A stretch of 25,207 nucleotides of DNA from a virus. The notes under the pieces are model-generated. The model saw only the letters and a list, made by a program, of their open reading frames with translations. It was not told where the DNA came from and did no database searches. Each line of letters begins with the position of its first letter. The first letter of the stretch is position 1. The position numbers were made by a program, and so were the translations under genes. Of this stretch, positions 34 through 22,052 are shown one piece after another. The stretch lies in IMG/VR virus record IMGVR_UViG_3300035701_000267, positions 1 to 25,207 of that record; one strand, 5' to 3'.

Positions 34-62
34 TTGACAAATAACAAATAATATGTTATACT
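34..62 (+). promoter_or_regulatory. sigma70-type promoter with extended -10
   Basis: A perfect TTGACA lies at 34-39 and TATACT at 57-62, with the optimal 17-bp spacer. A TGT directly before the -10 (54-56) makes it an extended -10. Transcription should start near position 69, giving a leader of about 30 nt before the ATG at 100, with an AGGAGG ribosome site at 90-95. It is the strongest promoter in the window and probably drives the whole early block. The TGnTATACT core recurs at 5972 and 9522. Confidence 0.85.
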
Positions 63-2310: not shown

Positions 2311-2687
2311 CCCATTATACCGCAGTTTGTAATAACTGTAATAAAATGGTACCAATTGACACTAACAATTTTAAAGGTGATATATATAATTTAATTTTAC
2401 ATTGTGAAAGATGCGGAGCAGATATGGAGATTATATCAGAAAACTCCGATGTAACAGGAGATAATTTTCCTATACTTGGCAACAGTACCAATTTAGACAG
2501 AGATAATATACAAAGAATTGGAGCATGGAATTTACTTGAATTGGATGAACATTTTGAATTTATTGGTAAAAAGATGATATGTAAAACAAAATTTACAGAG
2601 TTATTAGTTGATTTTAAAATTGATTTATGGAATTTAACAAACAAAGAATTATATAGCAAATTAACTAAAGGAGGATTAAATGTGTGA
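2307..2687 (+). CDS. zinc-ribbon protein, unknown function
   Basis: A 126-residue protein with an N-terminal zinc ribbon: CxxC at about residues 8-11 (CNNC) and CxxC at 33-36 (CERC), with a strand pair between. The remaining 90 residues are acidic and Asn-rich, with a helix-forming end (LVDFKIDLWNLTNKEL). No family recognised. The ribosome site AGGAGG lies in the preceding gene, and the 3' end overlaps the next gene by 8 bases. Confidence 0.75.
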   Translation: MTHYTAVCNNCNKMVPIDTNNFKGDIYNLILHCERCGADMEIISENSDVTGDNFPILGNSTNLDRDNIQRIGAWNLLELDEHFEFIGKKMICKTKFTELLVDFKIDLWNLTNKELYSKLTKGGLNV

Positions 2688-3192
2688 TTTTGTTTCTTGG
2701 AAAGAATACGAAGGTAAAGCTTACTTCCTTACTAATTCAGACCTGGAAACGAAGGAAGGACGAAAACTCTTAAAACCTGGAGTAAAAGATGACCTATGTG
2801 GACATGGAGCTATTGAAAATTATTATTCTGAATTAAAGGGTAAAGGACAAAATAAAGAATGTACAGATTTTAGTACACCTTTAAATTTTCCTAAAGAGAT
2901 AGTGGAAGCTCTAAAAAAAGGACGACTAAGTAATATAGGTATTGCTTTAGATATTTTAAATGAGGCAGGAGTTAAACAATATAAAAAGATACAAGATACC
3001 GCATGGGAGCAATACGAAAAGATAAAAGCTACCGCATTAGACGTATTAGAGTATGCGATTTTTATTAGAAAAATATGGGAGCAATACGAAAAGATAAAAG
3101 CTACCGCATGGGAGCAATATAAAAAGATACAAGATACCGCATTTGCTACAATAGTAAGACAAAAGAAATATAGAAAAATAGAATGGCAATAA
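2680..3192 (+). CDS. phage protein with WEQY(E/K)KI repeat array
   Basis: A 170-residue protein. Residues 1-95 form a unique domain (MCDFVSWKEYEGKAYFLT, then GHGAIENYY); residues about 97-155 are an 11-residue tandem repeat of the type WEQY(E/K)KI(K/Q)(A/D)TA; a basic tail follows. Proteins with this opening and such repeats occur in phage and metagenomic sequence; their function is not known to me. Between two repeats sits a 13-residue segment, LDVLEYAIFIRKI, almost identical to residues 30-42 of the next gene's product. The ATG has a strong AAGGAGG site. Repeat number probably varies between relatives. Confidence 0.8.
   Translation: MCDFVSWKEYEGKAYFLTNSDLETKEGRKLLKPGVKDDLCGHGAIENYYSELKGKGQNKECTDFSTPLNFPKEIVEALKKGRLSNIGIALDILNEAGVKQYKKIQDTAWEQYEKIKATALDVLEYAIFIRKIWEQYEKIKATAWEQYKKIQDTAFATIVRQKKYRKIEWQ
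2974..3140 (+). repeat. 33-bp in-frame tandem repeat with a 39-bp insert
   Basis: Full 33-bp units lie at 3003-3035, 3075-3107 and 3108-3140, with a partial degenerate unit before 3003. The first two full units are identical; the third differs at a few positions. The array is interrupted exactly between codons at 3036-3074 by 39 bp (13 codons) resembling 3292-3330 in the following gene. Every unit ends in ACCGC, and the whole array stays in frame. Confidence 0.9.
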
Positions 3193-4135: not shown

Positions 4136-4867
4136 GTGAATAAAAAGTTGATATGGATAGTGATTGTTAGTTTGGTGTTAAGTGCCAATGTTTACGCAGG
4201 TGGAGTAACAGATAACAACGCAGGGCAACAGGGGCAGGTGTTAGTGTCCACAGGTGAAAACAACGGCGCAAATAGCATAGGTACATGGACAGACCCAACC
4301 GACATAGATGGTTTAAAGGGCGATAAGGGCGACCCAGGAGAGCCAGGAGCGCAAGGGGAACAGGGAATCCAGGGTATACAGGGTATATCAGGGGAGAATG
4401 GAAAAAATGGCGACCAGGGAGAACAGGGCTTGCCAGGTATAAATGGAGTTGATGGCAAGGACGGACAGCAAGGAGATACGGGCGACCCTGGATTAAATGG
4501 CGCGGATGGTAAAGATGGTATTAATGGTTTAAATGGACAAGATGGTGTGCCTGGGGTTAAAGGAGATAAGGGAGATATAGGGACACAAGGAGAAAAAGGT
4601 AACAAGGGAGATAAGGGAGAACGCGGATTACAGGGAGTCCAGGGAAAGGGATTAAAAGACCAATATAAAGTTGGGGTAGAGGCAGTTATTGCTGAAACAG
4701 CAAGAACATCGTGGAGGATGTATTATAATAGGGATGTTAACAACAATACCAATGAGTTTGGAGTGCGCGTTGTTGTTTACATCGGCAAGAGTTATTCACA
4801 GAAACAGATGGAAAAGTTACAGACACAGTTAAAGCAGTTGGCAGATAAGGTAGAAGGGCGTATATAA
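4136..4867 (+). CDS. secreted collagen-like (G-X-Y repeat) protein
   Basis: A 243-residue protein beginning at GTG behind AAAGGGGGTG. Residues 1-21 form a clear signal peptide (KK, hydrophobic core, then VYA before cleavage). Residues about 62-172 are uninterrupted G-X-Y triplets rich in KGD, GEQGIQG and DGKDG, as in bacterial and phage collagen-like stalks. The C-terminal 70 residues form a folded domain with strands (YKVGVEAVI, FGVRVVVYIG) and a terminal coiled coil (KQMEKLQTQLKQL), a likely trimerisation or anchoring unit. Phage collagen-like proteins are usually tail or capsid fibres; the signal peptide instead suggests export by the infected or lysogenic cell. The GC content is locally higher because of Gly codons. 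Confidence 0.85.
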   Translation: MNKKLIWIVIVSLVLSANVYAGGVTDNNAGQQGQVLVSTGENNGANSIGTWTDPTDIDGLKGDKGDPGEPGAQGEQGIQGIQGISGENGKNGDQGEQGLPGINGVDGKDGQQGDTGDPGLNGADGKDGINGLNGQDGVPGVKGDKGDIGTQGEKGNKGDKGERGLQGVQGKGLKDQYKVGVEAVIAETARTSWRMYYNRDVNNNTNEFGVRVVVYIGKSYSQKQMEKLQTQLKQLADKVEGRI

Positions 4868-4876
4868 CCGACCAAA

Positions 4877-4904
4877 GGGAGGGCAGGAGCAATCCTGCTC
4901 TCCC
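4877..4904 (+). terminator. 12-bp stem with GCAA tetraloop, possible terminator or mRNA end
   Basis: Arms 4877-4888 and 4893-4904 pair over 12 positions with one G-U wobble and a GCAA (GNRA) loop. It follows the collagen-like gene's stop by 9 bases. No T-run follows, so intrinsic termination would be weak; a processing or mRNA-stabilising hairpin is equally possible. Confidence 0.5.
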
Positions 4905-7430: not shown

Positions 7431-8236
7431 GAGAAAAATTAGAACAATATAAACAATATTTAATTAATATACATAGGTCTTTAGTATATTATAATTTTTT
7501 AAATCCTTTTTTTAAATATTTAGAAAAGGAACAATTGGAATTTTCTACTTTAACAAAAGACCAATTGGCATATTATTTTAAATATACTAAATATTCTCCC
7601 AATGCCATTAATAACTTAATAAAGGCATGTCGAAATTTTTGTCAATATGCTAATATAGACAATCACCCATGTTTTGAAATTCCCTTAGTAAAAGTAGTGC
7701 GTAAGATAATAGAATATATGACATTAGAAGATATTGAAAAGTCTATCAAATATGTGGCAACATACAGTAAAAGATTTAATTCGGATAAAGTGGCTTGTTT
7801 ATTGTATTTCATGTTTTATACAGGAGTGAGAAAAAGTGAAATTGTAAATTTAAAACGAGCCAAATTTGATTTAGAAAATTGTACAGTTTTAATATACGAA
7901 GAAAAAACTAAACAAGAAAAAATTATTCCCTATCCATTTTCTATAAATGATAAACTCAAGGCATATTTTAAATCAGAACCAGAAGAATTAAATGCGTTTA
8001 ATATTAAATCTAAACAAATAGATTATTTATTTCACAATGTGATAAGTAAGTATCTTGGAAAAAAAGTTAAACCTCATTTAACCAGACATGGCTGTGCCAG
8101 GTATTTACAGGAGCAAGGTATACCACCTACGGTTGTACAAAAAATTCTTGGACACCAGAATTTAGCTACCACCCTTATTTATATGACACCAGACCAAAGA
8201 ATGATAGAAGAAAGTTATAGAAAGAAAATAAAATGA
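7427..8236 (+). CDS. tyrosine recombinase / integrase
   Basis: A 269-residue protein using the ATG at 7427; the same frame is open further upstream, but the ATGA overlap with the preceding gene favours 7427. Residues 1-90 form a SAM-like core-binding domain (YYNFLNPFFKYLEKEQLEF). The catalytic domain shows R135 (TGVRKSEI), a Lys on the beta-hairpin (K160 or K162 in EEKTKQEK), H217 and R220 (HLTRHG), H243 (LGHQNLATT) and nucleophile Y252. The catalytic set is complete, so it should be active. Its compact size resembles XerC/XerD more than large phage integrases. It may integrate the phage or resolve multimers; no attP-like site is evident nearby. Confidence 0.9.
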   Translation: MREKLEQYKQYLINIHRSLVYYNFLNPFFKYLEKEQLEFSTLTKDQLAYYFKYTKYSPNAINNLIKACRNFCQYANIDNHPCFEIPLVKVVRKIIEYMTLEDIEKSIKYVATYSKRFNSDKVACLLYFMFYTGVRKSEIVNLKRAKFDLENCTVLIYEEKTKQEKIIPYPFSINDKLKAYFKSEPEELNAFNIKSKQIDYLFHNVISKYLGKKVKPHLTRHGCARYLQEQGIPPTVVQKILGHQNLATTLIYMTPDQRMIEESYRKKIK

Positions 8237-8499
8237 AAAATTTAGTATGGACATGTTCTCTTGATGATTACATTGAAATTATGGAACAAACAATTATTTT
8301 GGGTAAAGAACATGGTAAGTCAGAGGGAGATAATTTGATACCAGAATTTTTTGAAATAGCAAAAAAATTGGGTAAAGCTCCTAAATGTTTAGGCGCAACA
8401 GAAATGGATAAGGATTTGTTGATGGGTAATATACGAGAAGATTTAAAAATTAAAATTTTAGACTTAACTAAAAAAGAAGATACAAATGAACCGTATTGA
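8233..8499 (+). CDS. hypothetical protein
   Basis: An 88-residue acidic protein: an N-terminal WTCSLDDYIEIMEQTIILGKE helix region, a middle helix EFFEIAKKLGK and an acidic, Lys-rich tail. No family recognised. It overlaps both neighbours (ATGA at 8233; 14 bases with the sigma-like gene), placing it in one translational unit with the recombinase and sigma factor. Confidence 0.7.
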   Translation: MKNLVWTCSLDDYIEIMEQTIILGKEHGKSEGDNLIPEFFEIAKKLGKAPKCLGATEMDKDLLMGNIREDLKIKILDLTKKEDTNEPY

Positions 8500-9142
8500 G
8501 CAGTTAGTTAAAGAATATAAACAAGAAAAAACGCAAAGTAAACTTAATCAAATTGTTACTATCTTAAAACCTGTTGTATTTAAAAAAGCCAAATATATAC
8601 ATGAAAAGAAATTTTACCCTTTGTCATTATATCATAAATGTATAGAATGTAGAAAATGTATAGAAAAAATTGATTGTGAAAATTGTGAAAGATGTAGATG
8701 CGTAAAAGGTACTTTTAATTTAAAAAGAAAAGGACTATGCGATTTAGCAGATGTTGAAAATGATTTATGGTTAGAAATATTGCGAGTTATTGAAAATTAC
8801 GATATTACCAAAAATTTTGAAACTTATTTATATGCTACTTTGTGGGATTGGATTCCTTCTTTTATTAATAAAAATTATATTAAAGAATTATTAAATATTT
8901 CTTTAGAGAATTCGTCAGAGGAAACAGAAAATATAGCGTCTAAACAAATATTTCAACCGACTGAAATCATTGAGGTTGCTGAAAAAGTGCTTAGTCCAAA
9001 AGAAAAAGAATTATTTTATATCTTATTGAAAGACAACAAATTAACAGAATTAGAGATTTCTAAAAAATTAAATATAGACCAATCCGTTGTATCTCGTAGA
9101 CTTACAGCATTGAGGAAAAAATTAAAAAAAGAGATAGCATAA
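8486..9142 (+). CDS. divergent sigma70-family factor with Cys-cluster insertion
   Basis: A 218-residue protein. Residues 84-130 look like sigma region 2 (DLADVENDLWLEILRVIENYD, then FETYLYATLWDWIPSFI). Residues 169-214 look like region 4 (LSPKEKELFYILL, then an HTH in LTELEISKKLNIDQSVVSRRL). Between the first helix (13-40) and region 2 lies an insertion (about 50-86) with eight cysteines at 52, 55, 58, 64, 67, 70, 72 and 85, spaced CX2CX2CX5CX2CX2CXC, suitable for zinc or an Fe-S cluster. A phage sigma factor would redirect host RNA polymerase to middle or late promoters. A sigma-like regulator that no longer binds RNA polymerase is possible. Confidence 0.72.
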   Translation: MNRIEQLVKEYKQEKTQSKLNQIVTILKPVVFKKAKYIHEKKFYPLSLYHKCIECRKCIEKIDCENCERCRCVKGTFNLKRKGLCDLADVENDLWLEILRVIENYDITKNFETYLYATLWDWIPSFINKNYIKELLNISLENSSEETENIASKQIFQPTEIIEVAEKVLSPKEKELFYILLKDNKLTELEISKKLNIDQSVVSRRLTALRKKLKKEIA

Positions 9143-9197: not shown

Positions 9198-9500
9198 ATG
9201 ACTAAGAGCGAGCCAATAAGGATAACCGAGATTGATTTCTTTCCTATTAAGCCTAAACAGGGCGTAGTCTGTTTTGTCTCCTTTACCTATCGTAATGAGC
9301 TTAGAATATGTGATTGTGCTATAGTAACTCGTCCTAAAGGCGGGTATCGCCTTTCCTATCCTCTAAGAAAGCTTCCAAACGGCAAGAGTATTCAAGCAAC
9401 ATATCCTATTAATACAATTACAGGTACACAAATAGAAACCACAGTGCTTAAAGCGTACTGTGATTTTTTATCGAAATTTGGAATTAAAGAGAAAATATAA
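9198..9500 (+). CDS. SpoVG-family nucleic-acid-binding protein
   Basis: A 100-residue protein resembling SpoVG along its whole length: strands IRITEIDFFPIK, then VVCFVSFTYRNELRICDCAIV, the loop GGYRLSYPLRKLPNGK matching the SpoVG 'xFVxMPxRKxxDGxxR' element, then ATYPINTITGTQIETTVLKAY matching 'AHPIxxxxRxxIxxxVLxxY'. SpoVG homologues bind DNA and RNA and act as global regulators in several bacteria. Codon choice (CGT, CCT and CTT frequent) differs from the AGA/TTA-rich neighbours, suggesting separate acquisition. AAAGGA lies 10 bases before the ATG. An extended -10 promoter follows the gene. Confidence 0.75.
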   Translation: MTKSEPIRITEIDFFPIKPKQGVVCFVSFTYRNELRICDCAIVTRPKGGYRLSYPLRKLPNGKSIQATYPINTITGTQIETTVLKAYCDFLSKFGIKEKI

Positions 9501-20189: not shown

Positions 20190-22052
20190 ATGCAAAACAT
20201 TGTAGACCATCTATTTGAGTATTTAACTAAAAAAATTTCAGAGTTTTCTAAAACAAAAAAATTTGGTCAACATTTATTTACTTGTCCAAAAATAGCAAGT
20301 CATAAAATAAAAACTAAAACTCCAACAGCAACTTTTTTACCAAATTCAGAAAAGATTACATGTTTGATTTGTGGTTTTAAAGGCACAATCTATGATAGTG
20401 TCAGAACTTTAGAACCAGATAAATTACATTGGTCAGATGCAGAAATTACAGATTACCTTATTGGAGATTTGTCTTTGAATTTATATTCAGAACTTGATTA
20501 TTATGTTAAGTATGGATGGGCAATTATTCCTCTTCTAAAGAATGACAGAGTACCATTTGAACCTAATTGGACAGAAAGCGAATATAAAGATAAGATACGT
20601 TGGATTAAATGGTTAAATAATGGATTAAATATAGGAGTGAATTGTAATAAAAGTAATTTAACAGTAATAGATGTAGATTTTAAAGTTAAACCTACAGAAG
20701 AGTTACTAAATTGGCAGCAGTTGCTTCAGGCTACAGGAACATTGAAACAAATCACCCCTCATGGAGAACATTACGTTTTCCTACAGGAAGCAGAAATAGG
20801 AAATTGGGTTAATTTAGGAGGTATTCATTTAGATACTCGCAGTATCGGTGGACAAATTGCTATTGCTCCATCAAAAAGAGACGATAAAGAATATAAATGG
20901 GAAAATCTAGGAACTGAGATTAAAAAACTTCCTGAAGATTTAAAAAAACAGCTTATAATATTAAAGCAAGTAGAAAAATCAAAAAGTTCAGATATAGATT
21001 CAGAAAACAGTATTCAAAATATTGAAGGAAAAAAACCACTTTTAAAAAATGATAACTTTGAAGGAAGTTGCAATAACAATTTTGTACAGTTTGGAGGAGT
21101 TTTAACAAAAATAGGAATACCCACAGATAAAAGAAACACAATTTTATATTGGCTTAATAGAAATTGGCTTGAAAACCCAATGGATTCTAAGGCAGTGCAA
21201 TCCATGTTAAAATCTTTAGATGGATATGAGTTAAATACCGAAGAAAGCCATGAGAAATCTATTTATGAGTATTTAAAGTTGGTACAGTCCGATATTTCTG
21301 CTAAAGATATCATGGATTCTTTACAATTACCACGAAGTATTGTAGATAAATATTTGTCTCAGTTTGTTAAGGAAGGCAAAGCTATTAGAATGGGCAGAGG
21401 TAGATATCAATATAAAGAAAAAATTGATTGGGAAGATTCTGTAGTAGACACAGTAAACGAATATGATTATAAAATGCCTCTCTTTAATGATATAGCAATA
21501 TTTCAAGATGCAGATTGTTTGATTTTAGGTGGCAAAACAAATGAAGGAAAAACAACTATAGCTTTAAATATGTTAAAACTAATGATTAATCAAGGAGTAA
21601 AACCTTATTATGTCTATAATGAGGCAGGGTCGAGATTTCAAAAAACTGCTAAGTTGTTAGGTATAGAGGGAGGTTTTTATCATTGTCAACATTCTAATCC
21701 TTTAGCCGTAGAATTAGAACGAAATGCGTTTTCTATTATAGATTGGTTATGCTTAGAAAATAAAGCGGAAACTGATACGATTCTAAAACATTTGAATGAT
21801 GAATTACAACGTAAGCGCGGTATTTTGGTTATTTTTACACAATTAAAAAAAGATTACGAATGGTTTGCTCCTAATTTAATAGACCATTTTCCTACATTTG
21901 CTGCAAGATACATTCAGGACAACGAAATTCATACAGAGGGGCATTGGCAATGCGATAAAATAAAAGAACCAAGAGGTAATTATACATCCTATTTATTACA
22001 TTGTGAGTACAATAGAGATACCAGGGTTTTTAAGCCTAAAAGTCTAATATAA
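20190..22052 (+). CDS. bifunctional primase-polymerase / helicase fusion
   Basis: A 620-residue multidomain protein. Residues 28-66 hold a zinc site (C32, possibly H38, C58, C61), in the position of a CHC2-like finger. Residues 105-255 resemble an archaeo-eukaryotic prim-pol domain: WAIIPLLKNDRVPFEPNW, GVNCNKSNLTVIDVD (D161, D163), TPHGEHYVF (H191) and GGQIAIAPS. Residues 290-345 look like a PriCT linker (ILYWLNRNWLENPM). Residues 355-410 are a winged helix. Residues 440-620 are a RecA/DnaB-like ATPase with Walker A GGKTNEGKTT (447-456), IIDWL (516-520) as Walker B and LVIFTQLKKD as sensor region. It should prime and unwind DNA at the phage fork. Confidence 0.82.
   Translation: MQNIVDHLFEYLTKKISEFSKTKKFGQHLFTCPKIASHKIKTKTPTATFLPNSEKITCLICGFKGTIYDSVRTLEPDKLHWSDAEITDYLIGDLSLNLYSELDYYVKYGWAIIPLLKNDRVPFEPNWTESEYKDKIRWIKWLNNGLNIGVNCNKSNLTVIDVDFKVKPTEELLNWQQLLQATGTLKQITPHGEHYVFLQEAEIGNWVNLGGIHLDTRSIGGQIAIAPSKRDDKEYKWENLGTEIKKLPEDLKKQLIILKQVEKSKSSDIDSENSIQNIEGKKPLLKNDNFEGSCNNNFVQFGGVLTKIGIPTDKRNTILYWLNRNWLENPMDSKAVQSMLKSLDGYELNTEESHEKSIYEYLKLVQSDISAKDIMDSLQLPRSIVDKYLSQFVKEGKAIRMGRGRYQYKEKIDWEDSVVDTVNEYDYKMPLFNDIAIFQDADCLILGGKTNEGKTTIALNMLKLMINQGVKPYYVYNEAGSRFQKTAKLLGIEGGFYHCQHSNPLAVELERNAFSIIDWLCLENKAETDTILKHLNDELQRKRGILVIFTQLKKDYEWFAPNLIDHFPTFAARYIQDNEIHTEGHWQCDKIKEPRGNYTSYLLHCEYNRDTRVFKPKSLI

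Follow-up and report, generated by a model that had tools for sequence, protein, structure and literature searches.

A putative metal-binding eight-cysteine module inside region 2 of an ECF-like phage sigma factor

In sigma70-family factors, the start of helix 2.2 serves in core binding and an F-x-T-Y segment in promoter melting. Within region 2, helices 2.1 and 2.2 are joined by a turn that is usually very short and adjoins the core-binding surface. Two ECF sigma factors of Myxococcus xanthus, CorE and CorE2 (ECF238 and former ECF44), depend on metal and have a demonstrated metal response; each has a cysteine-rich domain at its C-terminus and a CXC motif in the segment that links sigma2 to sigma4 (PMC8999054). 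CXXC zinc domains bind two Zn ions through Cys 1, 2, 3, and 8 and Cys 4, 5, 6, and 7, respectively (PMC4642587). Here, we describe a sigma factor gene on a 25,207-base IMG/VR virus record (the window, by which we mean this whole stretch of DNA) whose product carries eight cysteines between helices 2.1 and 2.2.

The window sigma resembles ECF and other sigma70 factors (TIGR02937; SigW and SigE type) in having regions 2 and 4 joined by a short linker, no region 1.1 or 3, and the core-binding and melting motifs. It differs from them, as do the other cysteine-bearing sigmas, by about 35–50 additional residues with eight cysteines between helices 2.1 and 2.2. As in CorE and CorE2, the sigma factor has a cysteine-rich site of its own, at which metal binding is putative in the window sigma; unlike in those factors, all cysteines are inside sigma2 (residues 52–85), with none in the linker or at the C-terminus. 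With its cysteines at the wrong position, the window protein is not a CorE-type factor. The preliminary description regarded a metal-binding sigma factor in a phage as a new design. Metal-dependent sigma factors were already known (CorE and CorE2; PMC8999054), and what is new here is the position of the cysteines and the phage setting.

Profile, fold, and alignment comparisons agree that the predicted product is a two-domain (ECF-like) sigma70-family factor with regions 2 and 4. Specifically, it scores 44.8 bits (E = 1e-11) against TIGR02937, the NCBIfam model of the sigma70-ECF superfamily, which is above the curated cut-off of 42.9 bits, and it matches phrog_1740 ('RNA polymerase sigma factor') at 7.4e-8. 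Pfam finds region 2 and then region 4 in the right order and without regions 1.1 and 3, both matches being under their gathering scores. The five cysteine-free relatives that were scanned score 48.9–53.9 bits against TIGR02937, over the cut-off, and P0002 (41.9 bits) and G022 (40.3 bits) fall slightly under it. AF2 models built from three and five sequences have modest confidence (mean pLDDT 61 and 64, respectively). ECF sigma factors lead the Foldseek matches of the five-sequence model (best SigW, E = 2.3e-3, probability 1.00), and the matches of the three-sequence model are mostly sigma factors. In a phmmer alignment, the window sigma from residue 87 onward pairs with SigW from residue 45 onward, and D89-V-E-N-D is a recognizable sequence equivalent of the core-binding DLIQEG / DxxQE signature. 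Its first Asp is kept in all homologs, and the aromatic residues F111 and Y114 of the melting segment are invariant in the aligned homologs (9/9). It is extremely unlikely that the product is a helix-turn-helix (HTH) regulator derived from a sigma factor and is no working sigma factor itself: several HTH families equal or outscore Sigma70_r4 in Pfam, where the sigma scores also fall short of the gathering cut-off, but the TIGR02937 score, the correct order of the two regions, the lead of ECF sigma factors in Foldseek, and the core-binding and melting motifs, which the alignment shows to be largely retained through the homologs, all speak against such a product.

The open reading frame (ORF), its coordinates, and its cysteine spacing are exactly as the preliminary description gave them, and its assignment of the protein to the sigma70 family, with regions 2 and 4, agrees with TIGR02937, phrog_1740, and Foldseek. 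It also placed the cysteine block between the first helix and region 2, and this placement is slightly off. TIGR02937 aligns to cysteine-free sigmas such as those of G010 and G021 from model position 3 onward and covers the helix that precedes the loop; therefore, that helix (residues 17–41 in the window sigma) is region 2.1, and the block lies inside region 2, between regions 2.1 and 2.2 (Table 1). The Pfam region-2 model resumes at about its position 17–22, just past the module, and region 2.2 begins directly past the cysteine block, at residue 87–89. The cysteines are C52, C55, C58, C64, C67, C70, C72, and C85, the last being four residues before D89 of the core-binding motif, and the protein has no others. 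The segment that follows the module, FNL-(9)-DVE, aligns without gaps to cysteine-free relatives (e.g. FKLVDLKSIELCDIE). In composition, the module has many K and R, few G and P, and no Cys-Pro. Profile searches place the block outside any catalogued sigma domain, as had been proposed. Searches of solved structures with the module returned only chance matches, none of them significant, and in both AF2 runs, with three and with five sequences, the module has a pLDDT of 35–47, with no fold predicted and none usable as evidence.

Table 1. Features of the sigma factor gene and its surroundings; positions are those of the window.
Feature	Residues	Positions	Strand	Basis or remark
Host sigmaA-type promoter TTGACA-N17-TATACT (TG-extended), predicted		34..62	+	Pattern scan; head of gene cluster
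88-aa ORF, conserved upstream neighbor		8233..8499	+	Overlaps sigma start by 14 bases; syntenic in G001, G002, G004
Sigma70-family (ECF-like, regions 2 and 4) RNA polymerase sigma factor gene, predicted	218 aa	8486..9142	+	TIGR02937, phrog_1740, Foldseek
Region 2.1 helix	17–41	8534..8608	+	AF2 pLDDT about 80; TIGR02937 in cysteine-free homologs; alignment
Insertion in 2.1–2.2 turn	about 41–76	8606..8713	+	11-homolog alignment; short cysteine-free loop in related phages
Eight-cysteine block CX2CX2CX5CX2CX2CXC-X12-C	52–85	8639..8740	+	Translation; invariant in five phages
Region 2.2 helix	87–104	8744..8797	+	Starts D89-V-E-N-D; Pfam Sigma70_r2 aligns from here; phmmer
Region 2.3–2.4 (F111-x-T-Y ... 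W-x-W-x-P-S-F), promoter-melting / -10 segment		8816..8863	+	Alignment
Region 4 helix-turn-helix	161–217	8966..9136	+	Sigma70_r4 168–215; AF2 helices pLDDT above 80
100-aa ORF, conserved downstream neighbor		9198..9500	+	Syntenic in G001, G002, G004

Relatives were reached through a RecA-like gene of the window, which led to several related phages, through the neighboring exonuclease, and through cysteine-codon patterns, one of which added a further phage; profile searches of the records so obtained then yielded the sigma homologs. Protein-pattern scans of IMG/VR and GTDB genomes with the window sigma found no relative, nor did a tblastn search with it in INPHARED phages. A looser cysteine-codon pattern matched 104 contigs, but true homologs were limited to the sigma genes of three phages. 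A tighter pattern, run on the whole viral collection, returned exactly four other cysteine-bearing phages (G001, G002, G004, and G022); thus, within this collection, the module as that pattern defines it is confined to this phage group. Two pairs of relatives are near-copies (G001/G002 and G016/G021).

None of the eight cysteines varies among the window and these four phages, whose sigma bodies are only 31–41 per cent identical to that of the window; among themselves, the cysteine-bearing sigma bodies are 31–44 per cent identical, the near-copies G001 and G002 aside. Between C3 and C4, the five proteins have a loop of 5 to about 18 residues; this variable length, combined with the invariant cysteines, is what two sets of metal ligands separated by an unconstrained loop would be expected to show. 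Four residues near the cysteines (G75, F77, N78, and L79) are also held, with strong drift elsewhere in the protein. Chance clustering of the cysteines is ruled out by random placement, in which eight cysteines fell within ≤34 of 218 residues in 4 of 200,000 trials, and by a count of the doubled CX2CX2C pattern, which occurs only in the five cysteine-bearing sigmas among 854 ORFs of six related genomes. Between G001 and G002, the sigma gene has a dN of 0.012 and a dS of 0.090, indicating purifying selection; this bias toward synonymous changes, together with the conservation, rules out an artifact of a wrong reading frame. The invariance of eight cysteines at such low identity of the sigma bodies strongly suggests, at the level of sequence, a metal or cluster site, in line with the zinc or Fe-S site proposed in the preliminary description.

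Homologs lacking all the cysteines, which the preliminary description had named as evidence against its proposal, do exist: six relatives (G006, G010, G016, G019, G021, and G024) have the same sigma with a short loop in place of the module, and G029 and G030 each encode a more remote sigma-like protein that is also without it. The module is therefore accessory and inessential to the sigma. The cysteine-bearing sigma body of G022 is nearest to that of the cysteine-free G024 (48 per cent identical). The window and the other four cysteine-bearing phages share a locus of clamp loader, Xer-like recombinase, sigma, and exonuclease, and in G024, the sigma gene is situated between the same recombinase and exonuclease. 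A search for sigma region 2 in G001, G002, and G004 found this gene alone in each phage. In a tree of sigma bodies, the cysteine-bearing forms are on one side of a weakly supported branch (81/90), and on the trees of the RecA-like and exonuclease proteins, three changes are needed to account for the distribution of the module. Two histories would account for this pattern: transfer of the sigma gene among these mosaic phages, or more than one gain or loss of the module. Because the cysteines are conserved in divergent sigmas and cysteine-free relatives retain the same sigma, the module is, by sequence comparison, a real, selected, and optional cassette.

Several other genes of the window and its relatives drew our attention. 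ORFs with zinc-finger and HNH-like sequence, which are probably homing endonucleases as judged by inspection, interrupt the sigma locus in relatives (L034 945–1514; L185 1235–1840 and 4140–4703) and are absent there in the window. A large protein of the structural cluster (G001 48577–50451; G004 91119–92900) has a CX2CX2CXC motif (CKNCGICICGK) in a segment that is variable among relatives. The primase/helicase-like protein has 620 aa in the window (20190–22052) versus 1012 aa in G001 (106081–109119), and the longer protein may hold an intein or another insert. Proteins with short degenerate repeats are encoded at 2680–3192 of the window and at 4879–5430 of L185 (IKATAWEQYEK; ADLDKANADWDKAN), and a protein with collagen-like Gly-X-Y repeats is encoded at 4136–4867 of the window and also in G001 and G002.

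The cysteine arrangement recalls CXXC domains (PF02008; MLL and MBD1), in which CX2CX2CX4/5CX2CX2C is likewise followed by two more cysteines. However, the window sigma has CXC and X12-C in place of CXXRC, the C3–C4 gap is variable rather than fixed at 4–5 residues, and the setting is a phage rather than a eukaryote. The first half of the CXXC motif (X5) is found in the window sigma only, the C3–C4 spacing being longer in the other four, and the Pfam zf-CXXC match at residues 50–73 is not significant (13 bits versus a cut-off of 26.5; E = 0.11). Membership in the CXXC family is thus rejected on the profile and on the second half of the motif. We treat the resemblance as a lead only; should the two share a ligand plan, it probably arose by convergence. 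Compared as profiles, the phage sigma factors of phrog_1740, phrog_351, and phrog_1190 have detectable homology to the window sigma over regions 2.2 to 4, but the match starts only past the module. Open-access searches of the literature on zinc-binding or cysteine-inserted sigma factors, which are weak evidence of absence, found no cysteine module inside region 2. A phage sigma70 of G023 (160 kb; L179 1297–2181) has an N-terminal cysteine-rich segment before region 2 (CAKSKCVKYPRCKKFCTVC) and is possibly a second, independent cysteine-bearing phage sigma.

Near-identical elements of the form TTGACA-N16/17-TGnTATACT occur at the head of the window, in G004 (4700, 5789, 8234, 9190, and 11079), and in G001 (28383 and 31422). 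From their sequence, they are probably early promoters read by the main sigma of the host. Their position at the window head and their repetition in G004 fit a program in which the host drives early expression and the phage sigma then takes over. A word-pair enrichment analysis for promoters of the phage sigma found no motif common to the phages, except the host-type TTGACA...TATACT in G004, and an EM motif search of the late strand of G001 did no better than shuffles. A repeated element (AGATAAAAGATA / AGATAAAAGATAWTATAYWAT) is located 20–25 bases before two late genes in G001 (37510 and 38957) and G002 (40113 and 41560); it is restricted to these two phages and absent from the others.

With moderate confidence, we hypothesize that the module is a structural two-metal unit before helix 2.2 that adds a contact to core polymerase or DNA, in a phage sigma that directs the host core. 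The sigma would be made early, from host sigmaA-type promoters, and would bind the host core RNA polymerase and direct it to phage promoters. The module would bind two structural metal ions, with Zn2+ held by four cysteines each as the favored case, probably through C52/C55/C58 with C85 and C64/C67/C70 with C72. Two four-cysteine sites are the simplest reading, because two triads and two single cysteines make eight ligands, with the variable loop between the triads. So folded, the module would be a rigid knob immediately N-terminal to helix 2.2, which binds core, and because the knob would adjoin that helix, a contact with the beta' clamp or with promoter DNA is probable, one that would suit a particular host polymerase. 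We infer metal binding, the two zinc ions, the ligand pairing, and the contact role from sequence, and Zn2+ binding in particular from the conserved cysteines. Counting against zinc, the two CX2CX2C triads are also suited to [4Fe-4S] clusters.

The same ambiguity would serve a redox or metal switch, in which a [4Fe-4S] cluster or a labile metal alters the start of helix 2.2 and so toggles core binding: the triads and the two further cysteines could ligate either Fe-S or Zn, C85 lies near the core-binding motif, and a cysteine-rich extension makes CorE and CorE2 metal-dependent (PMC8999054). We nevertheless consider a switch rather unlikely, since related sigmas do without the module (including one that a related phage encodes at this very locus), its composition is rich in K and R with little G or P and no Cys-Pro, and a sensor has no obvious use for a phage sigma that acts during infection. 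Redox- or metal-sensitive transcription had been raised in the preliminary description, and nothing points to sensing. It is quite improbable that a metal or Fe-S cluster inside region 2 gates the core-binding face and lets the phage tie the timing of its gene expression to metal or redox conditions in the infected cell.

Two other roles would involve neither sensing nor a contact with core or DNA. Lineage-confined optional cassettes often bind partners, and the small conserved neighbors on both sides of the sigma gene (Table 1) could be taken to favor a docking site for an anti-sigma or co-activator encoded by phage or host. Such a site is unlikely, as G024, with its module-free sigma, likewise encodes a relative of the upstream neighbor, and no partner tracking the module was found. 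Alternatively, metal-bound cysteines may merely stabilize an enlarged loop, with no contact or regulatory role, which would agree with the retention of module-free homologs and hence with a module dispensable for basic sigma function; this is very unlikely, given that the eight cysteines and their four conserved neighboring residues are held against the drift of the rest of the protein.

An optional, strictly conserved metal-type module at the 2.1–2.2 turn would be a new way to build onto a sigma factor. The related phages that have the same sigma minus the module provide a natural control, and with such paired natural sigmas, what the module adds, be it in core choice, promoter choice, or regulation, is directly testable.
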